Source of the DNA: Cucumis sativus
Taxonomy: Eukaryota > Streptophyta > Magnoliopsida > Cucurbitales > Cucurbitaceae
Assembly (NCBI RefSeq): GCF_000004075.3
Contig: NC_026660.2
Span: 16,821,837 to 16,885,836, forward strand
Direction of reading: 5' to 3'
DNA length: 64,000 nucleotides
Positions 5,911 to 46,700 of the stretch are shown one piece after another (position 1 is the stretch's first letter; each line of letters opens with the position of its first letter). Under the pieces are notes generated by a model, which saw only the letters and a program-made list of their open reading frames with translations, was not told the DNA's origin and made no database searches. The position numbers were made by a program, and so were the translations under genes.

Positions 5911-6870
5911 CTGTGAAATGTGCATGGGATGTGCCTGCTTTATAAGAGCTAAGCCCTATAGTTAAAAAGAGATGGTTGGCTTTATATTAAGCATGGCAAG
6001 CTTTTGGCATTTCATAGAGTTTGATGTTCGATGTGTGTTGTGAAAAATAGAATATATTTTGAATAATGTGGATGAAATCAAAATATATTATGTGTATCAT
6101 AAATTATATGCTATGGCGTTATGATTTTGGGTCTTGTAACTATTTTATGAAAGGAAAAATGACTAATATAAAGTTGGTGATGATCTTAATCTTATTATTA
6201 GTAATATAAACTTGCCAGTTCATGTTCTACTGATTTTAAGTTTTATTTTATGTGTTAATTATGAATCAAATTTTGTTAAGTTACAAGTTTACTAATAATA
6301 GTTAATTAACTTTTAATTTTATTAACTAAATTTATAGATTATTAAACATTGATCAGTTTACATAATTTTGATGATCTTTTGAAATACACTATAGTTTTCT
6401 AAGCTAAACTTTTGATCTAGTTGAAGATTGATCAAACCTTTCGTTTAAAAAGAAATGATACGTTTCAATTAAGATTACCGTGATTGATATGATTAACCAT
6501 GTGTGGTTTTAATAAAATTAGCAAACAATGTTATTCAACACATGCAATATAAAACATTAATTTATGTGTATTAAAGTATTACGTTAATCAAAATATTCAT
6601 GGTGAATTTTTAATTAATGTTGATGGGTTGTGATTTCTAAATTTTGCAAAGATGGTATAATTTGTTAATTATTGTTTATAATTATAGTAAATTTGTTCAT
6701 TAACACTTTTGGTATTGAAAAATCACTATCGGCAATCATTAAATGAAACTAATTAATAGAGAAATAATTTTCCTTTTTGGTTTGATAATATATATATATA
6801 TATGAATGCTCCTTTGTTCCATTGATCTTCATTTAATATCTATATCATGTTAAATAAGTGTTTGAATTAA
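5911..6870. other. Intergenic, AT-rich, no gene seen
   Basis: No ORF, RNA gene or repeat boundary was recognised. A short (TA)n run lies near 6789-6803. Confidence 0.6.
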
Positions 6871-10391: not shown

Positions 10392-13300
10392 TCAATGATC
10401 AAAAGCACTTCTTACTGATAATGGTTGATCTAGGTGGACATTGTTTCTGGATATAAGATCGTGGTTGAAAAATAAAACGATAACACTAATGTCATCGTGG
10501 AAATGACGCCGAACTTTCTTGTCAATCTTTCGGAGATCTGAATACCGCATCTCTCGTTTTCGAGCTGCTTCTTGAAGGGCTGCCTTCACAAGCCTTTTTG
10601 CACTTCCCTGCATCCAATATCCAATCAAGCAAATGGCAAGAAAGGAGCAAATCAAATGTGCATCAGAAAATGCTTGCAAGCAATCAAAATGTTTGTTTAC
10701 AGATAATTTGAAACTCAAATCTGAAGTATCACGTTCACCACAACAGAAACAACCCAGTGGCAAAGAAAAGGAGAGATGAATTTTTATTACACTATCTAGT
10801 AGGTACATGAGCTTTAGAAAAGATCGTATAGGACAAGGATCCAACACAAAATTTGAAGTTTATAGCCTAATGTATCAAACATTTTTTAACTATAGAATAG
10901 AGACCAAATAAACACAAACACAAACTTGAAAGTATACTGACACTTTTTAGAGCCGTGGATTGAATAGACCAAATATAAACAAACTTAAAAGTTCAAGAAA
11001 TTCACCCTTTTTTTATCATTCTAGATATGAAAGCAACTAAAGAATTGAATGTGGAGAGAAACTTACTGCACGTGGATGATTATGAACAATATCCACTGCT
11101 TTTTCATTGGTTAGGTGTTCCCAAAGTCCATCAGATGCAAATATGAGAAAAGAATCGTTTTGATGAAGAGGGTGAGCAATAATTGTAGGTACAGCAGTCA
11201 ATATAGGCATATCAATTGGCTCAGGAAGCCTAAATTTAGCATTGATTCTTTCATTATTATACTGAGCATGCTTCAAATAGACATCCCCAATGGATCTAGA
11301 AACCTGCCATCAGAAAGAAGAAAGTTTAATCATTATCCACACAGATAAAAATGGATTAAAAATAACGAGGACATATAAAGGATTTTGCCAGATGTCTAGC
11401 AATTTCTAGATAACGGTCACTTAAGAAATTGAATAAAAATAAACTGATAGTAGAGAACTTCAAAGAGCTCTCACAACCTACAAGAACCGCAAGCAAGAGA
11501 GTAATTATTCTGATGCGAACGATCTCTTTTAAAAACCTATCAACCAACCATTAGTGGTTGAATATGCATCATCACTGTCTCCTTGATTAACAATAAATTA
11601 CAGGGAACCATTTTCTAAAACTGTCTAAAGAAATTGGCACCGGTGAAATAACCACATATAGTGACAAATAAATTGGATTTCAGCTTGAAAGAGAAGGAAA
11701 AGAAATTTCAAAAGTAACGAAAAAATCAACTGTAAGCCTTGATAGATATGGTATTTCCACAATTTTTTTGTTCTACCAACAAAAACAATTAACTAATGCC
11801 AAACTATGAATTATGGTTCCTCCATTACAGGAAACAATTTCCAATATCTATATAAAAAAATAACATCAATAAATTACACAAACGAAATGACAAATCACAA
11901 AGATGTTAGACAGCAACCCCGAAAAAGAATTAACTTTTCTTTATTATCCTTGAGTGCCCAGGTCAGCTTAGCGCAAAAAGAAAAAGATCAACTTTTAACA
12001 TAAAGAAAACTCGACTATATGCCTTTGCTTTGAAAGATACAGTATTTTTGTTTTATATTACAGCACAAGTCCAGTGATTCCCCAGTTACACTAAAACGAT
12101 AGCAAGTAGCATAATGGAAGCTTTGGTAGTTTTGGGAATTAGATAGAGTTTTGAAATATGGCCACTATACACTGAAATTGAAGTGTGCAGGAAGTATCAT
12201 TCCTTCACAATCTTAATGTAAGACTGGGGGAAAGAATTGAAATATCTTGACCCTTTCATGATACCTAATCTGAAATTTAAATCATCCTATGATTATATTA
12301 AGATCGGTATGCTACAAGACAAGAAAACAGATTCTAAAGTTGTACGCCAGATATTATATGCCTGAGAACTGCAATAATGACAGTTATTTTTACCTGTATA
12401 ATTCCTTTCACTCTCCAAACTCCATGTCTTTGGACCACAATTTGAGGGTCATTTGGATGCATCTCGCTTAACTCTTGCCTGATTTCGTCAAGATTTGCAT
12501 TATGCTCAGTTGATAATTGAATGGCAGCAATCTCACCAGTGTTGCCAACTTTCTTCCCTAACACAGCACGAGAATCCCCCAGGCTCGCAATGTAGAGTGT
12601 CTGCTCGTGTATAACCCCTACTAGACAGCACGTCCCAACTGTTGCTATCTGGGGTTGAGTACTCCATAACTCTGACACGACAGCCGTGAACCCTTCTTCT
12701 GTTCGACGAAAAGCGTTCAGAATGGTTTCACGAGTCACCACTCCCTGATGTTCTTCTGAAATTAAAGCATCAAAGAAGTTAACGAGAATGTCAACCTAAC
12801 CATCCCCTCCACTCTATTTAAGAAGGAAACGATCAAAAAGAAAATTTCTGGCATTCAAAAATATTTTAGCTTTTGATAAGTCGTGAGTAATCAAGGAACA
12901 CAACGACGAGTGTCATTTGAAAACATACGCGTAAAATTATTTAAACTATGTATAGAATCATCAGCCAATCAGAGGAAACGTGTATCCACTGTCTTCAAAC
13001 AAAACCCAATACACAATTAAATTCCATTTAGCTACCCCAATCTCCTTCAACTTCATAAGCTATATAATCTACACTAAACTCAAAGACAGTAATCAATCAC
13101 AAACAGTAATCAGTTTCCGACGGAGAAAAATAGCAAAAAGCAAAAACCCGCAGTTCAAATAACAAAGAAAAATAAAACAGATCTAAAGATGAGTAACAGT
13201 AGAGACAATGATTAATAAAACGCAAGAAATCAAACCAAAAAAAGGGGGGGAAACAAAACACGAGGGCGTTGAAAACAACAGGAAAGGAAAAAGAAAGATG

Positions 13301-19489: not shown

Positions 19490-19498
19490 AATTGGGCC

Positions 19499-19580
19499 GG
19501 ATTTTTTTAAAAAAATAATGTGTTTTGTAAAAGTATTTACAAAAATAGGGTAGTTGGGAAAGTATTTTAAAAAATAGGTG
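19499..19580 (+). repeat. Left terminal inverted repeat of the MULE
   Basis: About 80 bases matching, in inverted orientation, 23350-23430. It starts GGATTTTTTT and includes AATAATGTGTTTTGT and AATAGGGTAGTTGG. The two copies differ at several positions, which indicates some age. Confidence 0.85.
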
Positions 19581-19583
19581 ACT

Positions 19584-19774
19584 GAAGTCCTGTACGGGGT
19601 ACACGACTTCCACAAATCGAAATGGTGTCGTGAACCGGGCTTACGATATTCGAGTGGAGTCGTGGACCCGGCCCACGTTTTCTGACTGGAGTCGTGTACC
19701 GGGTACACGACTCCCGTACAGCTAGCACATTTTGCCGCGTATGGTGGAAGTCGTGTAACCCGTACACGACTTCC
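19584..19774. repeat. Left subterminal hairpin repeats of the MULE
   Basis: Three palindromic copies share the arm GAAGTCGTGTAC or GAGTCGTGTAC and its complement: 19584-19610, 19689-19713 (perfect arms around one base) and 19746-19774. More degenerate copies lie between them (GTCGTGAACC, GAGTCGTGGACC). The same motif recurs near the right end. Such subterminal repeats may bind transposase; that is inference. Confidence 0.8.
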
Positions 19775-20584
19775 GTACAATGAGTCAACAGTGAGTCAAC
19801 GGTCAACAGTCCAGTCAACCGTAGGGTTCACGGGTGGACGTAGGGTTCAGAGGGTGTGGACACGTGTCTTCATTCTGCCTTCATTCGAAATCTTTTTTCC
19901 TTCCTCTCTTAATTTTTCCTCTTCCTCTTTTTCGTTCTTCCTTCGTCTTTCCTTTCCTCTTCCTTCGTCTTTCCTTTCCTCTTCCTTCATATTTCCTCTT
20001 CCTTCATATTTCCTCTCTTCACCTCATAATTTTTACTAGTTTTTTCTCTCTTCATCTTTCCTCTTTCTAACCCATTCTTCCTCCCAACTTTTCATCTTTC
20101 CTTTCCCCCTCTTCATCTTTTCTCTTCCTATTTCATTCTCCCTTCCAACTTCAAATTTTCTCTTCCCCTCTTCTCTTTTCCTCTCATCCATTTTTCCTTT
20201 CAAATTTTCTCTTCCTCTCTTCACTTTTCCTCTTCTATTTTGTCATAAAGGTATGTTTTTCTAAAAATCGTGGACGGGGTACACAATTTTGTTGTTAAAA
20301 TTATTTTATTTTATTATTATGTTGATAAAATAATTTATTTTTTGTTGTAAGCTTCTCCTATCCTCCATTGTCTCCTATCCTCCATTGTCTCATTCATCTT
20401 CACAAGGTATGTTTATTCTAACCCTAATTTTATTTAGATTTGTTATTTTATTTTCTTATTTTGTGGAAAAAATTTGTTTGAATTTAGTTATATTTTTTTA
20501 ATTTAGTTATGTTTTTTGAATTTAGTTATGTTTTTTGAATTTAGTTATATTTTTTGAAATGGATCCAAAATGATCCAAAATGAA

Positions 20585-20689
20585 ATGGATTGGAAAGAGT
20601 CTAGTCAATCAATTAGATGCACGATCTGTAAAGTAGAAGGACATAACAGACGTACTTGTCCTCAACGTGCTTCTTCTTCAAGACACTGA
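20585..20689 (+). CDS. Small zinc-knuckle ORF inside the MULE, 34 aa (transposase tail remnant?)
   Basis: The ORF reads MDWKESSQSIRCTICKVEGH followed by NRRTCPQRASSSRH. The spacing C-x2-C-x4-H-x4-C is a CCHC zinc knuckle. The form C..C...GHN.RTCP followed by a short Ser-rich tail is typical of the extreme C-terminus of plant Mutator-family transposases. Upstream frames are interrupted, so this is probably the surviving tail of a lost transposase, not an independent gene. It could also be an exon of the adjacent PMD transcript. Confidence 0.5.
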   Translation: MDWKESSQSIRCTICKVEGHNRRTCPQRASSSRH

Positions 20690-20898
20690 TATGTAATTAT
20701 TTTAGGGTTTGATGTAATTATTAATGCATGACTTCTATGTAATTGTTTGATGTATATCTTAGTATTTGATGAATAGTTTAATTATAATTTATTGGTATGT
20801 AAAATTAACAACTTAAATTTATAATATTGTAATCATGTAATGGAACTTGGGTCAATTGATCCTCATAGTATTTCGATATTTTTTAGGTTATTTGCATA

Positions 20899-22641
20899 AT
20901 GGAACCTGGGCCGAGTGATCCTACACAGCTATATCTACAACCATCCCATCGTTCACAGTCTATATGGGAGGCCTCCTCCAAAGTTGTTTTGAGTTGTCGA
21001 CGAAGAGAGGCAGCATCTCAGCGTACGATCCCATTTGATTAGCGTATTGTACCATATTTAGAGGCTGCTGGATTTCTAGGGGCTTCCCAAATAGGATTTA
21101 TGCAGTTGGACTGGCATTTGATTACTGCTCTGGTCGAGCGTTGGAGACCAGAGACCCACACATTTCATATGCCTTGTGGGGAATGCACGATCACCCTATA
21201 GGATGTTGCAGTTCAGTTAGGGTTACCTGTGGATGGTGAGCCTGTGGTAGGGTCGTTATTATATGACTGGAAGGTACTCTGTGAGGATTACTTGGGAGTT
21301 CGTCCACCTGAAATGAAAGGTAAACGATTGAGCCTTCCTTGGTTGGCAGAACAGTTCACATAATTGCCACCGGATGCTGATGTAGTGAGCGTTCAAAGAT
21401 ACGCTCGTGCATACATTATGCAGTTAATTGGAGGCTTTCTATTTGCAGACAAATCAAACACCCTGGTCCACTGTATGTTCCTCTCACTTTTAATTAATTT
21501 TGACCAGGCTGGTACGTATGCTTGGGGAACTGCATGCCTCGCATGGTTGTATTGGGAATTGTGTCGAGCGAGTAATGCACGATCTTTAGAGATTGCTGGC
21601 CTATTAATATTGTTGCAAGTATGGGCGTATGACAGATTTCCTATTCTGGCACCACAAGTACCAGTTGAGGTATCAGTTGGTCGACCTTTGAGTTTCAGGT
21701 ATTATATATATATATATATATTATATATATATATATAATTTTTTAGTAAAATTTGCAGGGTTTATAACTTATTAATGATTTCATTTCTCACATTAGATGG
21801 AGCGGCGTTATACCATTGTCAGAACTGTCCGCAAATATGTTGATCACCTACCGAATGTTTTTTGATCGGCTGATCAACTCTCAGATAGTAAAATATTATA
21901 CTAATATTGCGTAGGCATGTTTTTTGTTGTTTCCTTATGTTCGTTTTTTTTAACAGATTAATTGGACACCATACACGTCCCACATTATGGCATTGCTTCC
22001 ACATCAATGTCATAACGGTCAAGCGATGTGGACATATGTGGGTCCTGTGATTTGCTTTCATCTCGTTGAGAAGCATCAAACAGATCGTGTATTGCGACAG
22101 TTCCATATGCTACAAATGCCACCAGAGTTTTGCTCCACAGATCAGGGCCTACACCAAATTGATTTAAGAGGCAAGCACGATCAAGATTGGAGTAGGATTC
22201 ATGCAGAACATATAGCAATGTGGCATTCACGAAATAATTTTTGTGCCGAAGCAGAAGCAACACAGAAGCCGACAGTATCAGATAACTATTTTTTCTGGTA
22301 CACGTCGATTACCCGACGCTTCATGACACCTGATGGCGCTTACTGTTATCGCATGGTAATAGTTTTAATATGATTTATAAATTTAATACAAGCATGAACA
22401 TTTTTTAATTATATTATTTACAATCGTTCAGAATAATTTTGTTGAAGACGTACGTCGAGTCTCCATGGAAAACAATTTTGAAATTTTTAGTCCAATGTGT
22501 GACGAAGTCATGGGAGATATAGACAGCCTTGTTCAGCGGACTCGACGTTTAAATGTTGCCGACACAGATCGTAGACGCATTCGACGGCGATGACGACGAC
22601 AAGGCGATGATGTCGTAGAGGGAGATGGGGAAGCTTCTTAA
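20899..22641 (+). pseudogene. Decayed plant-mobile-domain (PMD, MAIN-like) gene carried by the MULE
   Basis: Reconstructable exons are 20899-21698, 21797-21887, 21957-22355 and 22432-22641, about 500 codons with GT-AG introns in consistent phase. It starts MEPGPSDPTQLYLQPSHRSQ. PMD features include PYLEAAGFLGASQIGFMQLD, LVERWRPETHTFHMPCGE, VQLGLPVDGEPVVG, YARAYIMQLIGGFLFADKSN, YAWGTACLAWLYWELCRAS, LILLQVWAYDRFPILAP and DWSRIHAEHIAMWHSR. Four in-frame stops break it: TAG at 21040 and 21199, TAA at 21361 and TGA at 22591. Each is one C-to-T step from Gln or Arg. PMD proteins (MAIN/MAIL1, and fused to PP7-type phosphatases) act in gene and transposon silencing, and the domain is often transposon-borne. 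This copy cannot give a full-length product. Confidence 0.88.
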
Positions 22642-23179
22642 GTTGTATAATTTAAGTGTTTTTAAATTTTGCTAGAACTTATTCAAGTTGTATAAATAAA
22701 AAGTTGAACTTTTTTAAATTAATTATAAATTAGAAGTTGCTAATACATGATTTAGATGTAGGAGTATTCTTAATAATATCAATATATAATATATATTTTT
22801 TAAAAGTAGAGAACCAAGTATTAAAAAAAACGTTCAAAATATTTTTTTCTCAATCTATCTTAAGCCACAAGATTTCTTTAATAAATTAACAAAAATTATT
22901 ATAAGATATCACTAATGATGTGTTTACCTTTGGTTTATTTTTTTAATTTGTTCATAATAAACATAAATTACCAAAAATTTGGCCATTTAAACAAAAACTA
23001 AAATTTTCACATATTTAAAGTTGAACATTTAAACAAAAACATAAATTTCCAACTACCCTAATTTTGAAAATACTTTTTAAAAACACATTATTTAAAAAAA
23101 AAATCCGTCTTTCACAAATGTTTTTACCCTAAAAATAGTTAATCTTTTAAAATATAATAATTTGAAAAACAATTATTTA

Positions 23180-23302
23180 GGAAGTCGTGTACCCCGTACA
23201 CGACTTCCGTCCACGTGGGTCAAACTCGTGCATACGTGGAGCGAAGTGGTCAAATGTGCTGACATGTGCATTTAGGAAGTCGTGTACGGGGTACATGACT
23301 TC
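23180..23302. repeat. Right subterminal hairpin repeats of the MULE
   Basis: Two palindromic copies occur: 23180-23208 (arms GGAAGTCGTGTAC and complement around CCC) and 23275-23302 (GGAAGTCGTGTAC with a slightly mutated partner arm). They match the hairpins at 19584-19774, so the motif occupies both subterminal regions. Confidence 0.8.
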
Positions 23303-23349
23303 GTTCAATTTCAAAAAAACACATATTTTTTAAAATAGTTTGGGAAACA

Positions 23350-23430
23350 ACCTTATTCTTATAATTTCTTTTCCAACAACCCTATTTTTCAAAATATTTT
23401 CACAAAACACATTATTTTTTTAAAAAATCC
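23350..23430 (-). repeat. Right terminal inverted repeat of the MULE
   Basis: Read on the minus strand it begins GGATTTTTTAAAAAAATAA and continues TGTGTTTTGTGAAAATATTT, matching the left repeat. It directly abuts the 9-bp duplication at 23431-23439. Confidence 0.85.
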
Positions 23431-24216
23431 AATTGGGCCTCTTAGCCATCCAATCATTCTATTTGGGCTACATATATTTTCAATAACTATATATATAGAA
23501 AGATTTAGATGAAATGCATTCATTTAATAAAAAATTTGAATGAATGTCCTAATTTAAATTTATTTTTTTAAGTTGAAAAGATATTATTTTACCAACAATT
23601 ATAACATTTTATAAATTATTAATTATATAATACAAATACTAATTAGATATTATATTCATAAAATTATTTGAAAAACTACCTTATTTAAAATTATTTGAAT
23701 TTTTATTTGATTAATAATAATAAATTTCATGTATGTTTTAAATTAATTATAAATCAAAATATACTATAATATTTGTAATTTTTTTCTAATTTGTAATAAA
23801 CTATTTATATATTCTTTTCAAAATTATATCTTTACCTAATTATTCCCCTCTCCGACAGCCACTATATATCTATTCTTCTCTATCGCTGGTAACTATTTTT
23901 ACCTATTCTTCTCCATCATTTGAAGCTTTTAGATATTCAATCATAAAATTTGAACTTCTTATGACATTGTTTTCTCAATTTGTATTCAAATTTCTCATAA
24001 CTGTAAGCTGCAGAATCTTAACAAGTCGCTGACATATACAATTCTTCATCACTTGAAGCTACGATAAAGTCTGCAGTAAATCATTTGTTCTTTTACCCAT
24101 TTAAAATTAAATAGTTAAACAACAAAACTACCTGATTAGTTCATTCTGAGTATATCACCTGCATATATATCGTATATATTAACAATATACCGCTCATTTT
24201 AATGTTATTCCGATCT

Positions 24217-29796: not shown

Positions 29797-30753
29797 CTAT
29801 GAGGAGGTGCAGAAATGGAGAAAAGCTGCGTGCAGATCCCGATGCATCTTCTCCATTAACGTCTTGAAAATGGCAGAAACATCCCCTCTTTTACAGTTTT
29901 CACCATTATTATTATTGTTGTTGTTGTTCTCTTTTTCATTGTACCTCCCAACCCTAACTCTTCCATCGGAATATGCTTCACATGCTGCCAATATCCTTTC
30001 CCCTTTTCCCCCAAAGTAATTCCTCACAAATTCTTCATAATTCTTCACCGGATTCTTCATCAATCTCATCATCATCTCACAACACAACAAATACACTTCC
30101 TTATTATACGCATCTGAGTAAATCTCCCCTTGATCCGCTTCATCTTTTTCCAACTCCGGTTCGTTGAAATACGGCTTCTCATTCAACACCAGCCCTTGAA
30201 TCGATATTAAAATCTGTAGAACTGTTGAAATTGATGGATTCCATCTCTCTTCTTCTTTTCCATCCCAGGTGTTGATTAAACTTAAGCAAACGTAACCGTC
30301 TTCGTATAGGTTAGGGTTCAATCTCAATCCGTAGGAATGGTAATACACCATTGGTGGAGTATTTGGATAGTCTGAAGTGAAGGCTAAATCGAAGAAGAAT
30401 AATCCATCGTGATATGGTGTTCCGGATGGACCGACGATTACTGCTCTTAATAGATCGATTCGCTCTTCGTAAGCCCGAACGAAAATTGATTCCGGAAGAT
30501 TCCTTTCGAGAACCTTCCATTCTCTCATGATCTTCTTCGAGACGTCTGATCCAATGCAGTTCGGAAAGAGGTTGGAATCGGCGTAATGGTGATCGGAGTA
30601 GTCGGTGACGATGTCGAAGCGTTTGAAGGAGAACGACGGTGGAGATGGAGACGAAAGCGATCTGTTTGGTTCGTCGCCGCCATCGACGGTGGTGGGGTGT
30701 TTGTCTTCGCCGTCGAGAGGAGGAGGAGAAGGAGGAAGAGATGGAGAAGCCAT
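29797..30753 (-). CDS. E2 ubiquitin-conjugating enzyme, UBC24/25/26 (PHO2-like) clade, 318 aa
   Basis: A single-exon gene. The start at 30753 (MASPSLPPSPPPLDGEDKH) was chosen because the longer in-frame extension to 30858 is hydrophobic and AT-rich. Residues 1-55 are Pro/Ser-rich and disordered. The UBC fold spans about 70-250: SKKIMREWKVLERNLPESIF, IVGPSGTPYHDGLFFFDLAF, YPNTPPMVYYHSYGLRLNPN, LYEDGYVCLSLINTWDG (catalytic Cys in GYVCLSL), WNPSISTVLQILISIQGLVL and NEKPYFNEPELE. A long helical C-terminus and a poly-Asn patch (about residue 277) follow. The LRLNPNLYEDGYVCLSLI signature is that of the large PHO2/BIRC6-like E2s. Arabidopsis relatives are, from memory, clearly longer at the N-terminus, so this is a short member. 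It would accept ubiquitin from E1 on the Cys and pass it to substrates. Target unknown. Confidence 0.92.
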   Translation of the reverse strand: MASPSLPPSPPPLDGEDKHPTTVDGGDEPNRSLSSPSPPSFSFKRFDIVTDYSDHHYADSNLFPNCIGSDVSKKIMREWKVLERNLPESIFVRAYEERIDLLRAVIVGPSGTPYHDGLFFFDLAFTSDYPNTPPMVYYHSYGLRLNPNLYEDGYVCLSLINTWDGKEEERWNPSISTVLQILISIQGLVLNEKPYFNEPELEKDEADQGEIYSDAYNKEVYLLCCEMMMRLMKNPVKNYEEFVRNYFGGKGERILAACEAYSDGRVRVGRYNEKENNNNNNNNGENCKRGDVSAIFKTLMEKMHRDLHAAFLHFCTSS

Positions 30754-33700
30754 TTTTGAGTGTTTATTTTTATTTTCTTGAAGGAGATAAATAAATAAAA
30801 TAAAACAAAACAAAACAAATAAAGAGAGAGAGTGAGAGATATGATTCCTTGGTATCAAAACGACGGAGGAGATGTCGTTTTAAGATGGTGACGGGAAAAC
30901 TAAACGTTTTTGGCGGTGCGTTGAAAGGGAGTAAGTTTAGTAGCAAATGCTCAATGACTATTTATGGGCTCAAAGGGAATCACGGGGACGTTTTTTAAAA
31001 TTTGTTTTTACTGTTTTTTAGATTTTTATTTTTTCATTACCATTGTTGTTTAAAAACCAAAGAATGGGTCCAATATCGAAATTAAATAATGGAAGAAAAA
31101 CGGAATGTTTTTCTTTATTTTGAAAAACAGCTTATTTTCTGCTAAATTACAAAAAAAAATATCCCATTTCTTTTCCTATGTGCTCAACAATACTGTGTGG
31201 TAATCATCCTTTCATCCTTATCATTTTTTTGCTTATCTGTCAGGAGAAAAAAAAGTATTATGTGAAGCAAAAAAACGGTAAATTTTATGGTTTTTGTTTT
31301 TTTGTTTTTTAAAATTAAACTTATCTATTCTACATTTTGAAAAACTACCAACTATGCAACTATTAAAGATTTATTTTTTAAAATTTCCTTAAGAATTCAT
31401 CCGCTTGAGAAAATATTTAAATTATTATAAAAAATTAGAAAAAACTATGCTTGGTTTTTAAAAGACAGTTTCCTAGGGGAGTGTTGATTGTTTCTAATTT
31501 TTAAGATACCATATGGTATTTTCTAAAATATTCTTCCATTTGTTTTTTATTCCCAAAAAAAAAAAGACTAACAATTCTTTTGAAGTTATATCACCTCAAA
31601 TTGTAAACTAATAATTTAAATCTAAACCTTTCCTATGCAATTAATTTAGATTTACTTCTAGCATTATTCTCTCTAAATTTAGCTTCATTGTTTCATTTAT
31701 TAAAACGTCAATTTCAAAACAAATAATGGAGTGTTTGTTTACCTTTATATATAATTAAAATTATTATTTAAAGTGAATATATAAATAAATAAATAAAAGA
31801 TAGAAATAACAAAATGATATTTAAACCTTTTGGTATAGGAAAGGAATATATCTAAAAATAGGATACATGTTTTAAATGAAGCTATATATATTATGATGTT
31901 TGTAGGTACAAACTTACCGTTGGGAAGGGGCTTTTGAATGTGGACATGAAATTAATGAGAATTTTTATATAGTTTGATTAAATGTGTAGTAGTGAGATGT
32001 TAGTGAGCATCTAGCAGCTGCATCATCCCCACAAAAAGATAATTAACCATATTTCATAGTTGCAATACTGATTGATTGAAATTATGAAATGTATATACCT
32101 TCTTGTCTCTAACATAAAACATTTCTTGAAATATTTTTAAAAAATATCAATAATTTGTTATATGTCGAGTTATAATTGGACAATTTAATTGGATGCAAAA
32201 AGATAAATGCCTACTCGAGATATGTAACTTAAATATTTATTTTTATAAAATGAAAAATTGAAATCTATGAATAAGAACCCCACACTTTTATTTTGTGTCT
32301 AGTCTATCTAAGATATTTTTAATATTCAAAATCATAGACTAGATTTGTACTTTTGAAATTTTTGGTGTCTATCATGACCCTTTGATTTTTTTGAAGATTG
32401 TGTTCATTTTTTTTTCTTCACACTTAATTGTAATGTCTAAATTCATAGTTATTTTTTTTAAAAAAAAATTGTTTTTTTAATAAAAGATTTAATTACTAAG
32501 TTTCTAAATCAAATTCTCCAAAAAAAAAAAAAAAACTCTAAAAAGCCAAAAATCAAGTAATTATGGAAGAAAGGGTAAAAAACAAAATAAAGATACATAT
32601 TTTAAAGTTAATGAATTAAACGTATTCTAAAAGTGTCGTACATGTATTAATTATTGTCGTACTATAAAGCGAACGTTTTCGACGAATACAAAAAATTAAA
32701 AGATTGAATTAATGGTAGAAATGTAATCTAGAAAACAAATGAATGGATTTGGTATGTAGGTAAGGGTATTTAAAATTGATAGGAATGTAAAAGTTGAAAA
32801 GAAAAGAAAAAAAAAAAAAGAAGACAAAATAGGAGCTAAAAATAATATGGAGTAAACAAAAAGTAGAATATAAGGGTTATTGAAATGGTGAGGTGGCAGT
32901 GGGGGAGGGCGTTTTTTACAAATTGGTAGTTTTGGGGGGGCCTCTGGGAGAAAGACACGTCGAATTTTATTTAATTGCAAAACGGTACCCTTTCCATCAC
33001 ACCTTAAGCCAACTCCTCTCTTTGCATTGCTTTGTTTATATAAAAATCTCTTCGCCACATTTATACGTCAATTTCTCTCTCACTATCTTTTTCTTCCCCT
33101 ACTTTTCCATCTTCCATCATTTGATAATTGTTTACATGTTTCATTTAATAATTATTTGGGTTTATTAGTTTAGTAATTTTTTTTAGAGGCTTTGAGATTA
33201 AGGGTGTAACTAATAAGCCGAGTTGAGTAGGATTTGAGACAAATTATGGATCAATTCGAAGTGACGGCTTAGCAAAAATTGAATCTATTAGTTAAACGTG
33301 CAAGGGTCAACCCAACTCATAATTTATGACTTTTTTTTTTCTAATTATTTACTTTTTCATTAAAAGTTGATTTTTTCTTTGTAGTAGTACTATTAATAAT
33401 AACAATAATAACCTGGTCAGTTTGACCTGGTTACTAAATCCTATAACCTGATATCCACAAAATTTTATGTAATGGAATCAAAGTCCTCATCGATTAGATA
33501 AGAGAATGATCTTGGGTATATAAGCGAGGACAACCATCTCCATTAGTAAAAAATCTTTTGGGATGGTAACAAAAACAAAGTGGACAATATCGTAATAGTT
33601 GATTGTTCTCTTCTAAATCTGATATCGAGGGTAAGAATTGAGGAAAAGGACAAGTGAGTATAAGTTTTTTTCAAATTCGTTTGATTTTCAACATAACTTC

Positions 33701-36069: not shown

Positions 36070-38516
36070 TTATAACTTGGAAGGTCTCTTGGAGCTCCGA
36101 CCAGCTATGAATTCTTGCATTTTCTGGAATTGTTCTTTCGTCATTCCATTGTAATACGCATGAGCTCTCTCCTGCATTCACAAAACATAAACGAGTTTAA
36201 TGATGTTTCAAAATTACTATACTTCATCGTGTTTGTTTGATAACTATTTTGATTTCTTATTTTTTTTCAAAAAAGATTATGAAGTATGATGTTAATTACA
36301 ATTATATACACAGACATTCAGGAAACGTTTAGAACAAGGGTTATCCTAAGACTATAGTAGCTAGAGTACCATATTGTTTTGTACTCTCTAATTAGCTACA
36401 TCAATACTATTTCAAAATCTCTATTTGCTACAACTTTGTTTATTATTTCCTTCTTAAGCTAAACAAGTTTATACCTCAAACATATACTATGTTATAATTA
36501 AAACTAAAATAAGCTATGTCTCAAATGCAACTAAACTCAACAACGACAACCTAGAGCTATAATAATCAACTCCTTGTCCGAAATGTCTACTCAACGATAA
36601 AAATTGAGCTCTTATCAAATGTTAAAGTTGCTTGTTCAAACTTACACATATAACTGTAAAATTGAATCTCAAACATTTAGGAGGTGTTTGAGTCATGAAC
36701 TTCAAGTTCGTGTTTCTAACTATTATAACTAACGTTGTTACTATTCAAATCCCTTTTAACTACAACCTATATTATTTACTATTTGCTATAGGGTATCTTT
36801 TTCTTTCTTCATTACATTATTTTCTGCCCAAACCATGCATCCTAAACATAGTTTATTATAACTCATAACCTGTACTAACTAGTAACTCTAATAAGTCAAT
36901 AACGAATTCAATGTCCCAACCGTCCTTAGAGACTAAATGATAAAATAGATAAAATTTATGGAAGAAATTTGTTAGGATACTACCTAACAAGAATCAATTT
37001 CTGAAAACATATTGAGAACTAAAGAAGAACTACAGGATCATCCAAGTTTATGGTGCTAGGAACCCTCTCGGCCTCTCCCTTCAGTGGTCTTAGATTACTC
37101 CACAGTCCACAAAATAGTCTTCCTCTCCCCACTCACCTTCATACTATTTTATACAACATCCGGTAACTAACTTTCCATTCAATGACCAATAGATTCCTTG
37201 CTACTAACATACTAATATTACTATCTAAGTTACCTAACAAAATTCGACCCTTCTTAACATCTACTTCAAAAATTAAAATGGTTAAAAACTTAAAATGAGT
37301 ACTGAAAGGACCATCCCATCCCATACCATTGCCCAAATATATGAATCTAGAAGAACATAATAACATTCCTACAAAATTTATTGTTCAAGAGACAAAAATT
37401 TCTACTAGCTTACAAGTTTGGAGGCTTAAGGTTGACAATTCTATAAATCTGAAATTCAATTTTCATCATTGAGGGTCTGATTCCTAGTAGAGTCCAATTT
37501 TAACCCTTTTCTATAAATTTATTTTGGAGTTTTGAGGGTGTAATTCCAAACAAATTTTAGTTGAAATTGATCCATTTCAATCAATTTTCAGTCCAAATCC
37601 TTGCATTCCAGACAATTTTGAAGCAAAATTCATGAACAAGAAATCAGAATTCAATGATGAATAGAGATTCGAAATAGTTATGAATTACCTTTTCTAGCGT
37701 AAGAGCTTGGCCAAGATCAAGCTTCAAGCCATCGTTAATGACTGACTTGTATCTCACTACCAAATCCTGATTGTTCTTCAAGATTGCCTCCGCAACCTCT
37801 CGAGCTTTCTTCAACAATTCACTTCCTTCAACCACCTGATTCACCAATCCCCTCTTCTCTGCTTCCTCCGCCGTTAGAGGCATCGCCGTTAACGATACTT
37901 CACGAGCTTTGTTGACTCCAATTATCCTTCCTAATTTCTGAGATAATCCCCATGAAGGAAATATCCCAAATCTGTCGTAACAGTATTTGGTTCCAGAAAT
38001 TTCAATAAAAGAACAGCATCGCACCGCCAATAAATTTCAGAAATTTACTTTGTTTCCCCTTATCCTAGCAAATTAATCAATTAATTGAAAGAAAGAGGAA
38101 AATAACCTAGCATGAGTGTCGATGAACTTGGCTCCTTTGGCAGCGATGAGTATATCACAAGCCAAAGCGATTTCAAATCCAGCGGTGATAGCAAAACCTG
38201 CAATCGCTCCGATGATCGGCTTCCGGCAGAGTTCCATTTGCGCAACGGGATCGGATTCAACATCCTTCACATCTCCCTTGAAAACATCCTCAGCCGCAGT
38301 TAGATCTACACCGGAGCAGAAGGCTCGTCCTGATCCAGAGAGGATGATGACCCGGACAGAATCGTCGCGGTCTAAGCTCTTAAACGCGTGAGCTAAATCT
38401 GCCATCATATGTTTCGTTAACGAATTCAACGACTTCGGGCGGTTGATCGTAATGAATGCGATCCCATTTGATTCTCTGTTAACGAGGATGAGATTTTCCG
38501 ACGAAGAGCGATCCAT
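36070..38516 (-). CDS. ECHIA: Peroxisomal enoyl-CoA hydratase/isomerase (ECHIA-like), 264 aa, C-terminal SKL
   Basis: Crotonase-fold enzyme of acyl-CoA metabolism. Three exons: 38516-38107, 37971-37689 and 36171-36070; joins are phases 2 and 0, giving 264 aa. The last intron is about 1.5 kb. The start MDRSSSENLILVNRESNGIA matches the family length; the upstream Met (38633) would add a stretch without homology. Motifs: FITINRPKSLNSLTKHMM, GSGRAFCSGVDLTA (first oxyanion-hole segment), KPIIGAIAGFAITAGFEIAL ACD (second oxyanion segment and first acid position), KFIDTHARFGIFPSWGLSQK. The C-terminus ERAHAYYNGMTKEQFQKMQE...RPSKL ends in SKL, a canonical PTS1 peroxisomal signal. It is very close, from memory, to Arabidopsis At4g16210. 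The second catalytic Glu of classical hydratases appears as His (DTHARFG against QPEILLG), so true hydratase activity is uncertain. Confidence 0.95.
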
Positions 38517-45100: not shown

Positions 45101-46700
45101 GCTAGTGCTGTTAATATTGATCGATGACCAAGATCCCGATGCCTCATTATTGACTGCTCGATGACCGTCATTTTGCTGCATTTCTAGTTTACCAGATATA
45201 GATGAACTCTTATGATTAGCTGGTTCAGCTTCTTGATCAATTTGTACCCAAGGCCAAACGAAACGGGCTGCTCTTGTTTCAGATCCTCCTTCCTGCTCAG
45301 TCCCTTTCCACGGCCACGATAAGCCTTTCTTGGCAATCCATTCTTCTGCCTTTGAGGATAAAATCTTCTGGATGGTAGGTTTTCCCTTACCCTCATCACT
45401 AGAATCCCTCACCAGTCTCCCAGATAACTTCTCTTCAACCTGGGAAAATGCACCATGAGCCGTGGAATCTCCTCGTGGCGTGCTAGCTCCACTCGAATTT
45501 GCATCATCCCGATTATCACAAAGAACTGCATCCGGATGGCCATGATCAGAGTGATAACCATCTCCACTTCCACCTTCACGATCCAAGCTGTTTTCTCCAG
45601 TTCGAATTTTGGACTTGACTTTGTTGCTTACTTTTGATGCCTATCTCAAGGCTACAAACTATCAAGATACACAAACTACAAAAGAAATCATAGGGAAATG
45701 AAACAAAAATACTAACCAAATTCGATAACTTCGAAGCGATTGCCACTTGAAGAGGCTGCTGAGGATCAAGACCAAGCTTAACCGAAACCGGGACTCGTGA
45801 TCGAACCATGCTTGAATCTGCATCCTGCTGTTTAGAACCTATTGATAAAGGAATCTTCAAATCTTGAAATGGCCGGGAATCGCTGGATATACAAATAATC
45901 CCAATCAATGCACCATCGTCGTAGAATGGAGTGTTGGTAGCAACAACTACAAATTTTTGCCCCATCTTGTTCTTTACAGGTAAATGACCAGTCCAATTCT
46001 CACCCGCCATTACACGAAGAATGACATGGTTTGTAATGGCGAAATCCTCAGGATCTACTAGAAGTTCAATGGCATCCTGACCAAGAGCCTCCGCCGCAGA
46101 ATACCCATATACAATTTCAGCAGCTCGGTTCCTACAAAGATAAAATTTTCAAAAAAGCCACATCCGAAAGAAAATTACGAACTGGGTTCTAGTCCAAAAC
46201 TCGAAACAATATAAACAGGTAACGTACCAGTAAATTATGTGATAATTAAGGTCAAAAATATAAACAGGCTGTCCCAGTGACTGTAAGATATTTAGATACT
46301 GTTTGTTGGTGAAATTCACAGCGGCGGGGCCAGAGCAGCCGCCGCCGCCGTCTGCGGCGGCGGCGGCGGCGGGATTCATAGGGTCGCGAGTTCTACTCTC
46401 TCTCTGAAGAGGAGAAGAATGTCGAAACGAGGAAGAGCCTCTTTTCCAGGCTGCAGCAGCGCCGTCTAAACCTCCGGTAGTGCCACCTCTTCTACGAGTG
46501 GCAGCAAATCTAGAACGTTGAGGTGATATGGATTGAGAACGTTGATGGTGATGGTGGTGATGGTGGATTTGGTGGTCGGAGTTGGAATCGGCAGCAGTTC
46601 CTGAGAGAAGAAGTTTGGACATCTCTTTCTTGAGATGCGCTTGACCCTCCTCCAGCTCTTGGACCTTCCTCAGAAGCTCCTCTGCTGGTGGAGTTCCCAT
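42176..46700 (-). CDS. PAS-domain Raf-like MAPKKK (B2 type, Raf7-12 related), 793 aa
   Basis: Serine/threonine (dual-specificity-like) kinase. Thirteen exons: 46700-46228, 46131-45717, 45640-44980, 44677-44637, 44473-44405, 44295-44195, 44089-44011, 43852-43754, 43675-43607, 43497-43448, 43341-43260, 43136-43042 and 42323-42176. All borders are GT-AG and phases agree. The N-terminus ([19 protein letters not shown]) is coiled coil, then low-complexity His, Ala and Gly runs. The PAS domain is at about 130-240: [61 protein letters not shown] Ser-rich linker follows. Kinase domain about 515-765: [16 protein letters not shown] (P-loop), DVAVKVFS (Lys), [31 protein letters not shown] (catalytic loop), [42 protein letters not shown]. 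It is catalytically complete. Related Arabidopsis kinases (Raf10/11) act in ABA and SnRK2 signalling; a similar role here is inference. Confidence 0.96.
46340..46376 (-). repeat. GC-rich trinucleotide repeats coding Ala and Gly runs
   Basis: GCCGCC/GGCGGC units within exon 1 of the Raf-like kinase encode [20 protein letters not shown] run nearby (46546-46565) encodes a His stretch. Both are in the disordered N-terminus and likely length-variable. Confidence 0.8.

Follow-up and report, generated by a model that had tools for sequence, protein, structure and literature searches.

A shortened MULE in Cucumis sativus and its relatives with MURA and a plant mobile domain gene

PMD-bearing MULEs described so far

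The plant mobile domain (PMD) is tabulated in the VANDAL, MuDR-9_OS, MULE-Monocots, MDR, MUDRAVI2 and MUDR groups of Mutator-like elements (MULEs) (PMC6446971, Table 1). Fusions of a MULE transposase with a PMD occur in grasses and in Amborella, and their authors inferred a capture from host genes (PMC5418596). The subject of this work is a PMD-bearing element located at 19499..23430, on the plus strand, of a 64,000-nucleotide stretch of the cucumber genome (Cucumis sativus, contig NC_026660.2, positions 16,821,837 to 16,885,836), hereafter called the window, whose first letter is position 1. This 3,932-bp MULE is very probably a dead, non-autonomous copy, derived by internal deletion, of a family of two-gene elements that encode the transposase MURA and a PMD protein, the latter having been under long selection.

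The silencing of transposons is reported to involve the host proteins MAIN and MAIL1 (PMC5418596, PMC7156037), eudicots hold mainly genic PMD-C (PMC7156037), and it has been suggested that the PMDs borne by transposable elements may be a counter-silencing device (PMC8616336). PMD-carrying MULEs, the capture of host genes and the idea of counter-silencing are already in print (PMC6446971, PMC5418596, PMC8616336). A literature search that covered the available parts of papers found none on this particular MULE family. What is added here is a clear two-gene layout, together with evidence of selection, in one plant genome.

The cucumber family shares with the flowering-plant groups of PMC6446971 duplications of 9 bp, inverted ends of tens to hundreds of base pairs, a SWIM transposase and, as in many of them, a PMD. 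However, its PMD is a separate gene located behind MURA on the same strand, whereas in several groups of that table the PMD is often antisense. Like the fusions of PMC5418596, it combines a MULE transposase with a PMD of the kind found in host genes (the PMD-C clade, an assignment made by resemblance only), but a conserved stop lies here between MURA and PMD, and the genome is that of a eudicot.

Ends, gene layout and shortened relatives

The element begins with GG and finishes with CC directly inside two exact copies of the 9-mer AATTGGGCC, the target-site duplication (19490..19498 and 23431..23439). Its terminal inverted repeats (TIRs), located at 19499..19576 (plus strand) and 23354..23430 (minus strand), are about 77 bp long; they pair with 85% identity over 74 nt (19503-19576 with 23354-23427) and extend to 19499 and 23430. 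Relatives were searched for in a 226.6-Mb assembly of 88 contigs, seven of them large, in which the window lies on contig C6. All counts from these searches are lower bounds, as they cover the best 40 of 225 candidates for the left end, 40 of 163 for PMD and 40 of 57 for MURA, and the same insertion may be counted twice when it is present on a small and on a chromosome-sized contig. The left-end query consisted of the left 111 bases from 19490, including the 9-mer. Among the best 40 of the 225 candidates, 30 of the 39 matches other than the window start at query base 10, that is 19499, which confirms the boundary of the family. The two loci G000 C47:78431-84167 and C1:17205811-17211551 have the same duplication and layout, and the L002 and L003 loci are likewise doubled.

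Sixteen family elements with both ends were compared for their flanks, leaving out L003 (the same insertion as L002, with the duplication reverse-complemented) as well as L008, L061 and L062, which are without a full right end. An exact 9-mer duplication was found in nine of them, including the low-complexity 9-mers of L040, L041 and L063, and one with at most one mismatch in 12. L030 and L039 have an exact 10-mer at their ends, and in L034 a 9-mer appears once the ends are slightly shifted; among these 16 elements, no target duplication was found for L004. When the left flank of one element was compared with the right flank of another, none of 240 combinations gave an exact or one-mismatch repeat. 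As far as sequence can tell, this control rules out chance repeats or nested insertions around PMD. Taken as a whole, the family has duplications of about 9 bp, long inverted ends and, in its longer members, MURA, as found in MULEs. The original prediction, which had fixed the boundaries to the base by a 9-bp duplication, described inverted ends of about 80 bp and proposed a mobile family with differing flanks and the same PMD, is borne out on these points.

Inside the element, near its right end, lies a further copy of the TIR (23038..23106, minus strand), which is seen in many other family copies too. It recalls the MULEs with multiple TIRs (PMC3310237), as it is an additional internal TIR copy without a duplication of its own; unlike theirs, it is one-sided and common to many family copies, including MURA-bearing ones.

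The PMD body gave 48 matches at at least 40 genomic places (best 40 of 163 candidates), and the DNA search with MURA gave 53 matches among those listed (best 40 of 57). Three longer copies of the family, L039 (6,834 bp), L040 (6,983 bp) and L041 (8,811 bp), carry MURA followed on the same strand by a four-exon PMD. In L040, an open reading frame (ORF) of 629 residues matches the MULE (E 3.3e-20), DBD_Tnp_Mut (E 1.4e-08) and SWIM (E 4.2e-08) domains above the Pfam cut-offs, and its PMD is recognized with an E of 1e-60 (Pfam). The window element aligns with the three longer copies as far as element base 1056-1060, and the alignment resumes at 1071. At this deletion junction, placed by alignment at 20555..20569, about 3 kb of L040 are missing, namely the remaining leader and the greater part of MURA. 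What is left of the transposase gene is its 3' end (20570..20689, plus strand), which comprises the final 39 codons, encoding a CCHC-like zinc knuckle, and the TGA stop, and is 98% identical to bases 1883-2003 of L040 MURA; the zf-CCHC_2 match of this remnant (E 3.1e-05) is under Pfam's own cut-off. The window copy is not autonomous, MURA being gone except for this end, and PMD is its sole large gene because the transposase has been deleted. PMD had been presented as the only large gene of the element, which holds for the window copy but not for the longer copies of 6.8-8.8 kb; the view of a MULE carrying PMD alone, as captured cargo, finds no support, since the longer copies hold both genes and the window copy lost MURA.

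The order of the two genes is fixed. All 20 scored matches that keep the 3' end of MURA are followed on the same strand by PMD, at a distance of 143-434 bp, and in the longer family form PMD begins about 180 bp past the MURA stop codon. In nearly all copies displayed, this stop codon precedes PMD, so MURA and PMD are separate frames, and a simple fusion of the two by read-through is ruled out; alternative splicing of MURA and PMD from one promoter is possible. A second, divergent family (L067 and L068) keeps the order and strand of the first; compared with the L040 copy, its pieces of MURA have 35-58% identity and those of PMD 37-55%. PMD is a stable second gene of this MULE lineage. At one place (L021 and L023, G000 C5:24368691-24376846), two PMD-MURA units are arranged head to head with their MURA ends about 280 bp apart, an arrangement that looks like an inverted duplication. 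Further PMD loci with a MULE domain upstream were judged by eye only and stand outside all counts.

The PMD of the window is a pseudogene. The PF10536 domain is present in two matches (21364-21738, E 1.2e-26; 21954-22373, E 2e-16) that score 94.2 and 60.5 bits for a cut-off of 34.9. Four exons, for a total of 498 codons, were predicted on the plus strand from GT-AG introns, the splice sites being judged by eye. Predicted exon 1 (20899..21698) has in-frame stops at 21040, 21199 and 21361, predicted exon 2 (21797..21884) has lost the GT donor of other copies, predicted exon 3 spans 21957..22355, and predicted exon 4 (22432..22641), which encodes an arginine-rich tail, has an in-frame stop at 22591. 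The PMD gene announced for the element is thus recognizable by its domain but broken by four stops in 498 codons (codons 48, 101, 155 and 483). Given these stops, the lost splice donor and the mere 39 codons of MURA, the window copy encodes nothing intact, and it is therefore unable to interfere with silencing through a PMD protein. Over 34 aligned PMD copies (the window locus L009 included), the number of in-frame stops ranges from 0 to 17; the copy with none, L011, is the PMD of L040 and has a one-base insertion near the end of exon 2.

Many relatives carry no PMD. Among 40 scored left ends (best 40 of 225), a family PMD lies within 10 kb downstream in 16 and not in 24. Nine distinct PMD-less insertions are readable (L002, counted once with L003, L004, L005, L007 and L061-L065); they consist of both ends and little else, L007 retaining a 57-bp piece of the PMD tail. 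Relative to the L040 element, L061 and L063-L065 break off on the left near base 542 and start again on the right at 6380. The two parts are joined within a few bases in L061, L063 and L065, pointing to a single deletion that spread later. Copies with the inverted ends but without PMD had been named in advance as one of two findings that together would speak against a PMD-carrying mobile element, the other being a PMD gene at this locus in relatives without the inverted ends. Such copies do exist, and the nine readable ones are short relatives of the same family; ordinary internal deletion would account for them, and they are no argument against mobility.

Outside the element, the window contains pieces of host genes on the minus strand, which encode a PP2C (12334-12795), a ubiquitin-conjugating enzyme (29797-30879), an enoyl-CoA hydratase (37644-38036) and a PAS domain (45576-46148).

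Descent of PMD and selection on it

The PMDs of the MULEs resemble those of the host genes. In an unrooted tree of 13 rows from the Cucumis sativus genome, they group with the intron-bearing host genes L042-L044 and are split from L046 and L047 with a support of 100/100; the join of the PMDs of the two MULE families has a support of 90/94. The closest of the host PMD genes compared, L043, is about 45% identical to the element PMD and has two intron positions in common with it, one after a codon-splitting AG before Trp (phase 2) and the other before an xxWxPY motif (phase 0), while the first intron of the host gene (LLQ) is not present in the element. Like MAIN, MAIL1 and the host loci L042, L043 and L044, the element gene encodes a PMD domain; unlike them, it resides in a mobile element, is without the LLQ intron and encodes an arginine-rich tail. 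These data, which agree with the host-type descent suggested earlier for this PMD, favour an ancient uptake of an unspliced, genomic PMD gene or else a shared ancestor with introns. The long PMD ORFs without introns, which may belong to Gypsy elements, were rejected as a source, L047 being about 20% identical.

Selection was estimated by Nei-Gojobori counts on triples with a codon bootstrap, that is by simple counts and not by codon-model fits, of the ratio of nonsynonymous to synonymous substitution rates (dN/dS). Pairs were taken without L052 and other low-coverage copies, and L066 entered with 75% of PMD. In five triples with one old sibling each, the PMD branch to L011 has a dN/dS of 0.18-0.23 for a dS of 0.40-0.53, and the sibling branches have a dN/dS of 0.60-1.51, as expected of dead copies. 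In a triple including both genes, the values on the L040 branch are 0.28 for MURA and 0.24 for PMD; on the other two branches, they are 0.56 and 0.36 for MURA and 0.41 and 0.33 for PMD. PMD was under long-lasting purifying selection in the lineage leading to the family. As a fixed second gene under purifying selection (branch dN/dS of about 0.2), it is not mere debris.

A related PMD (L049/L054, G000 C5:31433814-31435540) has a single in-frame stop (codon 388 of 498), as against 15-22 in five siblings that have diverged to a similar degree, and its branch has a dN/dS of 0.15-0.20. The search gave no copy closer than 80%, and there is no MURA within 6 kb upstream. This PMD may have been domesticated from the MULE as a host gene, or it may be all that is left of a lineage that was once active.

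Origin of the window copy and role of the PMD protein

Pack-MULEs are non-autonomous MULEs with host gene sequence in place of their own genes. The window element could be taken for one of them that recently picked up a host PMD as neutral cargo, as this copy viewed alone has PMD as its only large gene and no transposase, this PMD is broken and it resembles an intron-bearing host gene. Such an origin is nevertheless very improbable. In the longer copies, PMD already stands beside MURA, and it lies behind all 20 scored MURA 3' ends, so that the window copy is a deletion product; the second, divergent family keeps the same order; the PMD branch shows a dN/dS of 0.18-0.23; and an identity of only about 45% with the closest host PMD compared means that the uptake was not recent. 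It could also be supposed that an ordinary host PMD gene is surrounded by inverted repeats and 9-mers that came together by chance or through nested insertions. Only the existence of host PMD genes speaks for this, and the recurrence of copies that share their ends and differ in their flanking duplications, together with the 0/240 of the flank control, makes its probability close to nil.

Several points weigh against a dead copy of a two-gene family whose PMD was kept by selection. A break-free MURA frame was found in none of the three longer copies, and no active element was seen. The 20 matches with the fixed order include the window, and those of C47 and C1:17.2 Mb are probably one insertion counted twice. 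Young copies compared pairwise give a dN/dS of 0.30-0.96 and the MURA genes of L040 and L039 one of 1.4; decay is expected in such comparisons, and they do not support selection. As the tree is unrooted, with host L043 in an open fork, the direction from host to element is a putative one. Finally, the step from conservation to function draws on the selection data and on the literature about MAIN and MAIL1. With these points taken into account, the reading as a dead copy of a MURA-PMD family keeps its high probability, and the following history can be proposed. An intron-bearing host PMD gene would have been taken up long ago and would have given rise to the PMD of the family. It would have been kept because the element benefits from its product, whose simplest mode of action would be a nuclear one, on the silencing or transcription of the element DNA. 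The window copy arose by the loss of about 3 kb, with nearly all of MURA, and was inserted with a 9-bp duplication. Since MURA is lost and the 9-bp duplication is yet present, a transposase supplied by another copy would have moved this element or its ancestor, as established for MULEs generally. The window PMD then decayed.

Regarding the help provided by PMD, a counter-silencing of the element is tentatively placed first, ahead of a help in transposition and then of a restraint of the element. It is possible, though doubtful, that the protein assists transposition instead of acting on silencing, as a cofactor of MURA or of integration that would take the place held by MURB in maize MuDR. The fixed position directly behind MURA (20/20), the similar constraint on both genes in one triple and the palindromes near both ends, possible sites for either protein, would agree with this role, whereas the known roles of MAIN and MAIL1 are in gene expression and in the silencing of transposons (PMC5418596, PMC7156037); many copies that lack PMD or lack MURA have moved, which is indecisive, as PMD could act in trans. 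A restraint, by which the protein would recruit the PMD-dependent repression of the host to the element's own copies and so limit damage, appears unlikely: host MAIN and MAIL1 do silence transposons (PMC5418596) and the carried domain is of host type and full-length, not truncated, but selection at the level of the element keeps helpers more readily than restrainers. A comparison with solved structures gave three matches for PMD (best E 0.046), none of them a convincing relative.

The palindromes have the form GTCGTGTAC-NNN-GTACACGAC. With at most three mismatches, five are present in the element and none elsewhere in the window: those at 19691..19711 and 23184..23204 are exact, and those at 19587..19607, 19750..19770 and 23279..23299 have one mismatch. 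In the genome, the exact motif has 223 sites, as compared with 0 for a reversed control, and 47 of the first 50 sites among the matches listed (all on C1) are located at most 2.5 kb from a scored family member. The left leader of L067 carries different palindromes, GGGCGAGT...ACTCGCCC, with two exact sites in the genome, both in L067, as if each PMD-MULE family might have its own mark. This organization, with an extra gene and a motif array, resembles that of VANDAL21, a MULE whose extra gene encodes the anti-silencing protein VANC21 and which has short repeated motifs in its non-coding ends (PMC10398659). By analogy with VANC, PMD would be a family-specific anti-silencing factor that recognizes GTCGTGTAC-NNN-GTACACGAC in its own family's non-coding ends and frees full, shortened and PMD-less copies alike from the PMD- or methylation-based repression of the host; this version of counter-silencing is rather improbable. 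MURA is an equal candidate for binding the palindromes, and the family-specific palindromes of the second family are seen in L067 only: L068, the other copy of that family that was read, and the relatives L055 and L066 gave no perfect palindrome at the threshold used for L067. To our knowledge, VANC is not a PMD protein.

The PMD proteins of hosts silence transposons and transposons carry PMD genes; the direction of this relation is the wider question. The family described here makes the counter-silencing idea testable on a defined set of elements, some of whose frames look intact, in which relatives without PMD can serve as controls and the palindrome is a candidate site for binding.

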